Shown: piece by piece, positions 22,466-29,695 of the stretch
Position numbering within the stretch: position 1 is the first letter of the stretch
How the letters are laid out: each line of letters opens with the position of its first letter
Virus record (IMG/VR): IMGVR_UViG_3300025941_000073
Span: 1 to 31,078 of that record
Strand: one strand, 5' to 3'
DNA: 31,078 nucleotides
From: a virus
The notes under the pieces: generated by a model
Database searches by the model: none
What the model saw: only the letters and a program-made list of their open reading frames with translations
What the model was told of the DNA's origin: nothing
Position numbers and translations under genes: made by a program

Positions 22466-23371
22466 ATGAGGCCGCTCGCCATCGATCTGTTCTGCGGCCT
22501 CGGAGGCTGGACGGAGGGGCTACTCGCCGAGGGCTACGACGTGGTGGGGTTCGACATCGAGCGGCACCGCTATCCGGCACGAGCCACCCGCGCGAGCGGC
22601 GCGATAAAGCAGCCCGGTGTCGGTTCCTGGGATCGGTCACGACCGTCATACACGCCCAACTTTCACGCGTTCAGCGTGGATGAAGGCCCCGCGATCGACG
22701 GCTGTTGGGTGGAATACCCCGCGCAACTGGTCATCCAGGACGTGCTCACGCTGCACGGCTCGCAGTTCCGTGACGCCGCGCTTATCGTCGCGAGCCCGCC
22801 GTGTCAGGCCTACAGCTATCGCGCGATGCCGTGGAAACGCGCCAAGGCGCTCCCGCCGCCGTGCAACGCCCTGTTCGACGCCTGCTTCCGCATTCAGCGC
22901 GAGGCAATCGAGGCCGCCGGTCATCACATTCCGCTCGTGGTCGAGAACGTGCGCGGCGCGCAGCCGTGGGTCGGACGGGCGCGGTGGAACTTCGGCTCGT
23001 TCTACCTGTGGGGCGACGTGCCGGCGCTGATGCCAATCACGTTCAAGGCCCAGAAGTTCAACCCCGATGGCACGGCGCACCCGCCCGGCTCGTGGTTCGC
23101 GATAGCCGACAGCAAGAACCGCGGCGCCAACGGGGCCAAGGTTCCCGGCTTTCGCTTTGATGGAAGTGGTCGATCGTTTCAGACGGCGAGCGTCAATGAG
23201 GGCATCAAAGCCGCAAAAGATGACGCGGGAGGCTACGGCGGCGGGTTCGGTTGGGACAGTTCGCCCATGCGCCGCGGCAACTCCAAATCACCCGCCCGCA
23301 AAGCCGCCTCGGCGATGATCGCCCGAATCCCACTGCCGCTGTCACGCCACATCGCGGCCACCTACCGATGA
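22466..23371 (+). CDS. DNA (cytosine-5) methyltransferase
   Basis: A 301-residue C5-cytosine methyltransferase that transfers methyl from S-adenosylmethionine to C5 of cytosine. Motif I is AIDLFCGLGGWTEG (residues 5-18). Motif IV ASPPCQAYS has catalytic Cys113. Motif VI is VVENVRGAQ (Glu160, Asn161). NFGSFYLWGDVP and a late PLSRHIAATY are typical of phage and solitary enzymes. The target domain is small, so the enzyme is compact. No partner restriction gene lies beside it, so it is probably a solitary enzyme for protecting phage DNA or for regulation. GAGG sits seven bases before ATG. Its stop overlaps the next start. Confidence 0.9.
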   Translation: MRPLAIDLFCGLGGWTEGLLAEGYDVVGFDIERHRYPARATRASGAIKQPGVGSWDRSRPSYTPNFHAFSVDEGPAIDGCWVEYPAQLVIQDVLTLHGSQFRDAALIVASPPCQAYSYRAMPWKRAKALPPPCNALFDACFRIQREAIEAAGHHIPLVVENVRGAQPWVGRARWNFGSFYLWGDVPALMPITFKAQKFNPDGTAHPPGSWFAIADSKNRGANGAKVPGFRFDGSGRSFQTASVNEGIKAAKDDAGGYGGGFGWDSSPMRRGNSKSPARKAASAMIARIPLPLSRHIAATYR

Positions 23372-27482: not shown

Positions 27483-29516
27483 ATGGCGGCGGCCACCAGT
27501 ATGCTAACCCAGGCCGCCGCTCCCCTGCTGGCGGTGCTGCCGCCTGTCGCGTGGCTGCCGCATCGCCTTGTCCGCAAGCCGGACGGGAACCTCGATAAGC
27601 CGCCGTGCCAGGGCGCGCGAACCAACGCGCCCGAAACATGGTTCACCTTCGAGGCGGCCTCGGCACTGCTGACGAGCAAAAACGACGTGGCCGGTATCGG
27701 CTTCGCCATCGTGGGCGGCATCATCGCGCTCGACTTCGACCACTGCCGCGACCCGCTGACAGGGCTGCTCGACGACGAAGTGCAACGCGAGGTCGAACGC
27801 CTCGAATCCTATGCCTACGTGACGCCCTCCCACACTGGCATCCGTATCGTCGGGCTGAATGACCACGAGTTGCCCCTGCCCGGCGGCAAACACGTCCGCT
27901 GGCTCCCCGGCGGCCACAAGATCGAAATCTTCGTCGGTCCCGTTAGCTTTTATAACACATTCACCGCCGAGACGATCGCCGGTTACGACACGCTCCGGAC
28001 TATCGCGGAAGACACGTCGGACTACCTGACGGGTCTGGACGCCGGGAAGGCGGGCGCGGTGAACGGCGCGGCCACGCACACCACGCACGCACCCAACCCA
28101 GATCCGCAACGCTCAGCCGCCGCCATCGCCGCCGCCCTGGCCTGTATCCCCAACACGGTTAAGGACTGGGATGAATGGTGCCGCATCGGCATGGCCGCGT
28201 GGCGCGCCTCCGGAGGCCGGGGAGCGGGGCTGGATGCCTGGATGGCGTGGTCGGCCCGCAATGCCTGTCACGACCCGGCGGCCTGCGAGGAACGCTGGCA
28301 ACACTGGTTCAGCAGCCCGCCAACCAAGATCGGCTTCGGCACGCTCTACTACGAAGCACGCCGCCATAAGCCGCTGTTCGTCGCGCCGTTCGACCCGCCC
28401 CAGCAGGGGCCAGCGGGCGAGCCGGGCGACGAGGGGAGGGCAACGGACGGCGATCTCCCTTTTAAGAAGCGCGTCAGGCCGCCGCCCGCTATCCTCACGA
28501 TCGCCGAACTACTGGCGCTCCCGCCGCCGCAATGGCTCGTGGCCGGACTGATCCCGGAGCAATCCCTGGTCGTGCCCTACGGCCCGCCGAAGTCAGGCAA
28601 GTCGTTCCTGATGATGAGCGCGGCGTTGCACATCGCCGCCGGACGGGACTGGTTCGGCCACGCCGTCCAGCAAGGCGCCGTGGTCTACGTGATGGGCGAG
28701 GGCATTGGCGGCATGGGAACACGCATTCGCGCCATGCTGACCCGCTACGACATGGCGCCAGACGTGCCGTTCTTCATTGTCCGACGCGCCGTCAACTTCC
28801 GCGATCCCGCCGAAGTCAACGCGCTCGAAGAGGTCATCCGCGCTCGCATCGGCGACATGCCGTTGCGGCTGCTGGTGATCGACACGTTGGCGCGCGCCAT
28901 GCCCGGAGCCGACGAAAACAGCGCGCAGGAAACCGGCGCCGTGATCGCCGCCGCCGACTACCTGAAGGAAGAACTCTACTGCACCGTCGCCCTCGTTCAC
29001 CACGAGGGGAAAGACGGCTCACGCGGCGCCCGGGGCACGTCGGCGCTGCGAGGCGCCTGGGACGCGGCCTATCAGATCGTGTCGTCTGGCCGGCGCATGA
29101 CGCTGACCGTCATCGACCAGAAAGAGGGCGAGGCCGGGCAGGTGTTGCGTTTCGACATGGAAGAGGTCGCGGTCGGAATCGGGCGGACTTCCTTGGTTCC
29201 CGTGCTCGATGATACGGCGGATGATACGGGTGATACGGGCAAGCGCCCGCGCGAGTTCGGAGGGCAAACCGGGTTAGCTCTCCAAGTACTGCGTAATCTT
29301 ATCGCCAGCCCCGAGTCAGCCATCCTCCCGCCATTCTCGGGTATGCCGGACGGAGACGTGCGCGGCATCAACCACGAAATCTGGCGACGGGCTTTTTACG
29401 AAAAAATGCCGGGAGAACCGCAGCCAAAAAGAAAGCTGGCGTTCTATCGGGCGTCTCAAAAATTGCAACAACTCGGCGCGGTAGGAGTGCGCGACCCATG
29501 GGTATGGTTAACATGA
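27483..29516 (+). CDS. bifunctional DNA primase/polymerase with RepA-type helicase/ATPase
   Basis: A 677-residue replication protein. The N-terminal primase-polymerase domain (1-~190) has the catalytic IALDFDHC (Asp84, Asp86) and TPSHTGIRI. A PriCT-like helical domain follows (~205-295; DWDEWCRIGMAAW, AACEERWQHWFSS). The C-terminal AAA_25/RepA-like ATPase has Walker A GPPKSGKS (367-374), Walker B LRLLVIDT (Asp467) and VALVHHEGKDGSRGARGTSA. It should prime and unwind DNA at the phage origin. Its 3' end contains three TGATACG repeats, and its stop overlaps the start of an open frame within a dense iteron array. This fits an initiator gene next to its own origin. Confidence 0.85.
   Translation: MAAATSMLTQAAAPLLAVLPPVAWLPHRLVRKPDGNLDKPPCQGARTNAPETWFTFEAASALLTSKNDVAGIGFAIVGGIIALDFDHCRDPLTGLLDDEVQREVERLESYAYVTPSHTGIRIVGLNDHELPLPGGKHVRWLPGGHKIEIFVGPVSFYNTFTAETIAGYDTLRTIAEDTSDYLTGLDAGKAGAVNGAATHTTHAPNPDPQRSAAAIAAALACIPNTVKDWDEWCRIGMAAWRASGGRGAGLDAWMAWSARNACHDPAACEERWQHWFSSPPTKIGFGTLYYEARRHKPLFVAPFDPPQQGPAGEPGDEGRATDGDLPFKKRVRPPPAILTIAELLALPPPQWLVAGLIPEQSLVVPYGPPKSGKSFLMMSAALHIAAGRDWFGHAVQQGAVVYVMGEGIGGMGTRIRAMLTRYDMAPDVPFFIVRRAVNFRDPAEVNALEEVIRARIGDMPLRLLVIDTLARAMPGADENSAQETGAVIAAADYLKEELYCTVALVHHEGKDGSRGARGTSALRGAWDAAYQIVSSGRRMTLTVIDQKEGEAGQVLRFDMEEVAVGIGRTSLVPVLDDTADDTGDTGKRPREFGGQTGLALQVLRNLIASPESAILPPFSGMPDGDVRGINHEIWRRAFYEKMPGEPQPKRKLAFYRASQKLQQLGAVGVRDPWVWLT
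29210..29237. repeat. TGATACG repeats inside the primase gene
   Basis: Three exact TGATACG heptamers at 29210, 29222 and 29231, spaced 12 and 9 bases, all in one orientation. They match the reverse complement of CGTATCA in the array ~300 bases downstream, so they may be an outlying part of the origin. Confidence 0.55.
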
Positions 29517-29695
29517 CAAAACGAAACGTATCACGTATCATTGGCGTATCATGCCGTATCATTGGATACGCCTCCAAACGTATCATTCACCGTATCAAAA
29601 ATGCCCCCTTTAGGGGGCATTTGATACGGGTGATACGGGGCGCGGTCCTGGGATGGGGGGCGTATCATGCCAATGATACGGGGCGGCGGGTATGA
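29513..29695 (+). CDS. possible 60-residue protein encoded by the iteron array
   Basis: An open frame begins at ATG 29513, overlapping the primase stop (ATGA), and ends at 29695, overlapping the next gene's ATG (ATGA). It reads through the whole iteron cluster, giving a basic, Ile/Arg-rich product (MTKRNVSRIIG, CRIIGYASKRIIHRIK). The overlaps at both ends are what would be expected of a translated gene here. It may only be a frame kept open to couple translation of neighbours across the origin. Product composition is dictated by repeats. Confidence 0.4.
   Translation: MTKRNVSRIIGVSCRIIGYASKRIIHRIKNAPFRGHLIRVIRGAVLGWGAYHANDTGRRV
29527..29680. repeat. CGTATCA iteron array, candidate replication origin
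   Basis: Seven exact CGTATCA heptamers (29527, 29534, 29545, 29555, 29579, 29591, 29661) and three inverted TGATACG (29622, 29631, 29674), plus one near copy at 29564. Pairs form palindromes: CGTATC-ATTG-GATACG at 29555-29570 and CGTATCA-N6-TGATACG at 29661-29680. A hairpin with stem ATGCCCCCT/AGGGGGCAT lies at 29601-29620. It directly follows the primase-helicase gene. Clustered iterons beside an initiator gene are characteristic of phage and plasmid origins. Confidence 0.75.
29601..29620. terminator. strong hairpin inside the iteron array
   Basis: ATGCCCCCT (29601-29609) pairs perfectly with AGGGGGCAT (29612-29620) around a two-base TT gap (with the terminal T-A likely opened to form a TTTA tetraloop). 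Inverted iterons on either side extend the symmetry, with a two-base bulge. It may be an origin structure or a terminator; the downstream TTTGATA gives little T run. Confidence 0.5.

Follow-up and report, generated by a model that had tools for sequence, protein, structure and literature searches.

The window, meaning the whole stretch of DNA analysed here, is an entire IMG/VR record (31,078 bases) that lacks terminal repeats; it belongs to a tailed phage and encodes head, tail-fibre and tape-measure proteins. An ORF elsewhere in it (22466-23371) gave partial DNA methyltransferase matches (PHROG 363 and 5999; Pfam C5 methylase barely at threshold). The locus considered below consists of a putative initiator gene and the array of a 7-bp word, CGTATCA, that starts about 10 bp after its stop codon:

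27483..29516, + strand: putative initiator gene (677 aa) with primase-polymerase region, ATPase and C-terminal winged helix
aa 216-292: PriCT_2 in the primase region (Pfam, 2.5e-14)
aa 345-512: AAA_25/RepA-like ATPase (Pfam AAA_25, 1.4e-40)
29210..29237: DNA coding for the ATPase-to-winged-helix linker DDTADDTGDTG and containing three further CGTATCA words on the - strand (29210, 29222, 29231), within the gene's 3' end
29256..29513, + strand: C-terminal winged helix-turn-helix domain (aa 592-677; AlphaFold2 pLDDT 93.8)
29421..29471, + strand: recognition helix QPKRKLAFYRASQKLQQ (aa 647-663; model helix 56-72), with positions p1=R650, p2=K651 and p3=L652
29527-29680, both strands: ten exact CGTATCA/TGATACG words, seven on + (starts 29527, 29534, 29545, 29555, 29579, 29591, 29661) and three on - (starts 29622, 29631, 29674)
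29565 (start), - strand: CGTATCC, a 6/7 copy and eleventh member of the array
29555-29570: palindromic word pair CGTATCATTGGATACG, second member 6/7
about 29580-29636: hairpin, ssDNA fold -21.1 kcal/mol, z = -8.5
29661-29680: palindromic word pair CGTATCATGCCAATGATACG

The N-terminal half of the initiator matched PHROG primase/helicase families, and Pfam recognized only AAA_25 and PriCT_2 in the protein, with no DUF927 or D5/Primase_Cterm helicase. The best PDB match of the ATPase was RSF1010 RepA, both by sequence (hmmsearch, 1g8y, E 1.5e-14) and by fold (1nlf, E 1.3e-12); the domain is a RecA-fold RepA homologue of the RSF1010-RepA-like hexameric type. The C-terminal domain matched no Pfam family and, when searched alone against PDB sequences, gave no credible match. 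Its AlphaFold2 model has the order H-E-H-H-E-E, i.e. H1-S1-H2-H3-S2-S3 with a two-strand wing, and its closest PDB folds are CRP/FNR-like (weak E of 0.02, probability 1.00). This presumed DNA-binding domain is fused to the ATPase, unlike the separate RepC iteron binder, acting on oriV iterons, of an RSF1010/IncQ replicon. The linker is of low confidence (pLDDT <50 at model residues 243-252). In the Methylobacterium currus plasmid NZ_CP089300 (L602:9377-9446), three words are likewise found within the AAA gene, about where the linker before the winged helix is expected, as in the window, and such in-gene words in linker DNA could possibly be a recurrent design.

CGTATCA occurs 15 times in the window, against 2.67 +/- 1.72 expected (0/100 shuffles), and outside the array and the gene it is found only at 2048 and 29840. 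The commonest 7-mer of the intergenic stretch has 10 copies, mononucleotide shuffles (n=5000) never exceeded 3, and elsewhere in the window no 7-mer reaches more than 4 copies within 175 bp; the density of the array is far beyond chance. The stem of the hairpin is built from inverted words around the core ATGCCCCC-TTTA-GGGGGCAT. An AT-rich melting region between two iteron sets was looked for; the intergenic stretch has 53% GC versus 63% for the window, with the GC-rich hairpin in its middle. Rfam and tRNA scans gave no match. A 65-aa open frame spans the array (29498-29695), but it is probably spurious because the repeats themselves form its codons.

The first-pass annotation, made without database searches, had reported ten exact heptamers in both orientations within 154 bases, three more copies in the 3' end of the primase gene, two palindromic pairs and a strong hairpin, and all of these held. 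The heptamer being common genome-wide would have counted against it, and this is not the case (2/15 copies elsewhere in the window). The array being absent beside homologous initiator genes would also have done so; arrays are present there, although the word itself differs between relatives, as described below.

Close relatives of the initiator are encoded on five viral contigs. One of them (L012) carries CGTATCA in the same places as the window, including the in-gene linker words, and two others carry different words in the same place (L011, CGTGACA x9; L013, CCGGACA x8). The window has the same word as L012 and is 83% identical to it over aa 625-677, versus 57% over the ATPase and 17% over the N-terminus; with L011 it has 85% identity over the ATPase, versus 49% over aa 625-677, and the two words differ. 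These segment identities show that the three are natural chimaeras, in which the C-terminal domain and the array have been exchanged as a cassette.

Distant relatives in phages, satellites and plasmids also keep an array at the stop codon, with CGTGACA, CCGGACA, CGGGACA, CGTAACA and other words, and most relatives share the hairpin design of the window. The following all have the array at the stop and a word-flanked hairpin:

Rhizobium phage 16-3 and RHph_X2_25: CGTGACA
Roseobacter phage CRP-823: CTACAAA
Roseobacter phage CRP-831: GTATAAA
Methylobacterium element: CGCAACA
Xanthobacter and Azospirillum elements: CGGGACA
Pseudorhodobacter element: CGTGACA
Sinorhizobium element: AGGAACA

The dense array starts within about 60 bp of the stop in nearly all relatives with this C-terminal domain, some having a few copies slightly upstream of the stop, and this position was found both protein-first and word-first. 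An array at that place was absent from some actinobacteriophage, Caulobacter and Microcystis relatives with the same ATPase but other C-termini (Nocardia NBR1, BirdsNest, Dove, Caulobacter GB2A and Microcystis Mae-JY30), a point that counts against the origin reading. In a circular 35-kb Methylobacterium plasmid, the TOPRIM and AAA pair is the sole annotated replication module. The C-terminal domain is rare in bacterial genomes (2/385 Alphaproteobacteria), and order-level searches of bacterial genomes added no members. In one further record (L040:2329-2434, MW202711), seven ACGTTCA words lie within the initiator gene, not after it.

A word-first scan with CGTATCA returned mostly chance or coding repeats, together with arrays beside other replication genes, and apart from the window this domain was present only in L012. 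The CGTATCA arrays of L066, L075, L128, L142 and L147 adjoin other genes without a match to the C-terminal domain model, and it is possible that the word is used by unrelated initiators too. A second class with the same ATPase and a different C-terminal domain (marine relatives, L405-L484) has an array after 24/67 genes, with too few relatives per word for deriving a code; its absence after most of these genes likewise speaks against the origin reading. Dense post-stop arrays of the second class were seen in L020-L030, L043, L405-L416, L423, L424, L441, L455 and L473, with GCGGAAG, GGCGTAGGTT, GGCGAGGGTT, GGCGGAGC, GCGGAAATA and other words; in many of them the spacers are AT-rich and conserved (GTAAGTCATTGAAATCATTG) and a hairpin is present.

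The word varies together with the recognition helix, which in relatives follows the pattern x-x-x-p1-p2-p3-A-F-x-R. When CGTGACA and CCGGACA were scanned for word-first, the contigs recovered were unrelated, and the genes beside their words have RRQ/KRQ or xK in common at p1-p3. A rule for base 2 was written before later loci were fetched by two further protein-first scans, giving 100 loci, and 22/24 covered new loci fit it. In a near-isogenic series, p1-p3 and word pair as ARQ-CGTGACA, ARM-CGTAACA, ART-CGTCACA, ARV-CGTTACA and ARK-CGGGACA. Among the 15 close relatives forming the ARQ, ARM, ART and ARV groups, p3 alone of 351 alignment columns is one-to-one with word base 4 (Q-G, M-A, T-C, V-T); the runner-up column reached 1.33 of 1.91 bits, and 0/5000 label shuffles yielded any one-to-one column. 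In this comparison, identity between proteins that use different words reaches 96% (L521 versus L525).

The same relationship extends across 53 diverse members, in which the associations of p2 with base 2, p3 with base 3 and p3 with base 4 were each reached in 0/20000 shuffles, and still in 0/20000 when similar members were collapsed to 31; p1, p4, p6 and p8 are far more weakly associated with the word (53 members). At p2, R and K go with G at base 2, Q, D and L mostly with C, and N and S are mixed; at p3, K and Q go with G4, M and L with A4, T with C4 and V with T4. The K651-L652 of the window fits the G2 and A4 of CGTATCA, in which T at base 5 is peculiar to the window word. On a tree from the ATPase only (50 rows), the words need at least 26 changes, and phylogenetically independent pairs favour p3/base 4 by 11:0 (p = 0.001) and p2/base 2 by 7:0 (p = 0.016).

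The scoring of this code was limited to 7-mers ending in [AT]CA, the base-4 rule was derived from the same data, and L542 was counted although it has no real array. Exceptions are L283 (QK, CCGTACA), L535 (SM, C[GA]TCACA), L487 (NL, AGGAACA), L538 and L540/L545, whose words do not end in CA, and L228 at base 3. The winged helix and the array are also adjacent, and linkage accounts for part of their co-inheritance. The covariation itself is shown. The first-pass annotation had left open whether the protein or a host partner binds the array; the word changes in step with the initiator's recognition helix, and therefore that protein, rather than a host partner, is favoured as the reader. This inference is strongly supported by the covariation, although binding data are lacking.

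Records of the near-isogenic series are 9-19 kb long, with an integrase in 6/10. One integrative element of 11 kb (L599:1-11017, IMGVR_UViG_3300031223_000909) encodes an integrase, Prim-Pol/PriCT_2, an AAA_25-winged-helix initiator followed by its array, TerL, HNH, an HK97-type capsid and a portal, without a recognized tail gene, and from this gene set it likely resembles a capsid-forming phage satellite. In a satellite-like subfamily (L190, L486 and L515-L545; 24 loci), a conserved 14-mer, GGTCCCAATGCCCC, lies about 60-90 bp past the array and might be a packaging, attachment or regulatory signal.

Taken together, the array is very likely a phage replication origin and the preceding gene its initiator, which supports the candidate origin of the first-pass annotation; origin activity itself is inferred from the domains and from precedents, without binding or replication data. 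The check on cumulative GC skew gave no support, as the minimum lies away from the array in the window, the circular phage CRP-823 and the Methylobacterium plasmid alike. In the mechanism we propose, the C-terminal winged helix would bind each CGTATCA word, residue 651 (p2) reading base 2 and residue 652 (p3) reading bases 3-4. Protein bound to many words in both orientations around the hairpin would place the RepA-like ATPase, whose predicted role is to form a hexameric helicase that opens the DNA; the primase domain may then begin synthesis. The start could be the extruded hairpin, much like the ssi hairpins used by RSF1010 RepB' (PMC4234260). The array, its position, the domain layout, the winged-helix model and the covariation are established by computation, whereas physical binding, helicase loading, hairpin priming and origin activity are all inferred. 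The origin would be self-cognate, just downstream of its own gene, and the specificity of protein and array would shift jointly, partly through swaps of a cassette made up of the C-terminal domain and the array (as between the window, L012 and L011) and partly through single helix substitutions matched by a concerted change of all words.

A transcriptional reading, in which the array is an operator through which the protein controls its own or the next gene while replication starts elsewhere, is unlikely. Binding sites next to a gene would suit it, and in the window, L011 and 16-3 the hairpin, bordered by short A/T stretches, looks like an intrinsic terminator. However, the array lies downstream of the gene and not at its promoter, an operator with 8-16 copies in mixed orientation and a hairpin among them would be unusual, the reader would be a fused primase-helicase, and many relatives' hairpins lack a T run after them. 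Clustered short repeats are also found in parS and pac sites, and some carriers of the array are plasmids, so that a partition or packaging site, or several such roles at once, might be considered; this is very unlikely, as the word tracks the recognition helix of a replication ATPase, not ParB or terminase, and the annotated terminase and ParA genes are located elsewhere.

Likewise very unlikely is that word and C-terminal domain are co-inherited purely as adjacent DNA, with the helix not reading the word. Cassette exchange is evident and the array begins about 10 bp past the stop, both of which speak for this explanation. Against it, a single one of the 351 columns is one-to-one with base 4 among proteins as much as 96% identical, the same helix residues pair with the same word in otherwise dissimilar proteins, and p2 and p3 map to different bases.

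Our results raise a bolder possibility, towards which the balance tips only slightly, that in a large family of initiators from phages, satellites and plasmids the specificity for the origin follows a compact predictive code (p2 to base 2, p3 to bases 3-4); these elements would have switched origin identity repeatedly by a coupled mutation of one or two residues and the concerted rewriting of every word, the likely driver being escape from cross-replication, satellites or origin-directed nucleases. Origin-directed nucleases that copy initiator specificity press on PLE origins (PMC8263062), and antagonism of this type, or the avoidance of cross-replication, is a plausible but untested driver of word switching here. 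Initiator-iteron specificity has so far mostly been solved one replicon at a time. In the near-isogenic series, the four residues found at a single helix position are matched by the four letters at one iteron base. This allows sequence-based prediction of origins and cognate initiators, and explains how replicons may avoid cross-talk. It also offers a direct way to test how up to a dozen binding sites shift along with their protein, and orthogonal initiator-origin pairs could serve plasmid engineering in Proteobacteria.

The layout of an initiator reading iterons beside its own gene is already known from SaPI/PICI Rep and P4 alpha. In SaPI Rep/Cch2, the C-terminal domains bind iterons that follow the helicase gene directly (PMC7581432). 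The rep-ori of Gram-negative PICIs, whose layout, according to a 2018 description, was not known from any other bacterial replicon, supports replication (PMC6092414). Like the initiator of the window, whose DNA binding is inferred from covariation, SaPI/PICI Rep and SCCmec Cch2 combine an initiator helicase and a C-terminal DNA-binding domain with a fused or adjacent primase (PMC7581432, PMC6092414), and SaPI/PICI have short iterons immediately 3' of the initiator gene. They differ in having DUF927/D5 helicases rather than a RecA-fold RSF1010-RepA-like AAA_25, and apparently in having two iteron sets flanking an AT-rich stretch rather than words in both orientations around a word-stemmed hairpin, whereas the window family includes full phages among its carriers and has a residue-level code. 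In the RSF1010/IncQ system RepA-RepB'-RepC, RepA is the closest solved ATPase, and oriV iterons, hexameric helicase and ssi hairpin priming make up the same set of functions as is proposed for the window (PMC4234260), but three proteins are used there, compared with one or two, no RepC homologue and 7-bp words in the window family.

P4 alpha (ori/crr) and pRN1 orf904 are primase-helicases with C-terminal winged helices and a nearby origin, which for orf904 is just downstream (PMC4234260); their helicase classes differ from that of the window family, the pRN1 origin is a stem-loop without iterons, and the P4 primase is TOPRIM. The RepA_N and origin (Odn target) of V. cholerae PLE resemble the window in that DNA-binding domain and iterons covary through module exchange (PMC8263062), yet the PLE domain is N-terminal and without a helicase, and its two specificity groups reflect module swapping, not a residue-base code. 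No earlier report of a residue-to-base code was found in the open-access literature searched, and what appears to be new is the ATPase/winged-helix family, the code linking its residues to bases, and the way word and helix have switched together time and again.
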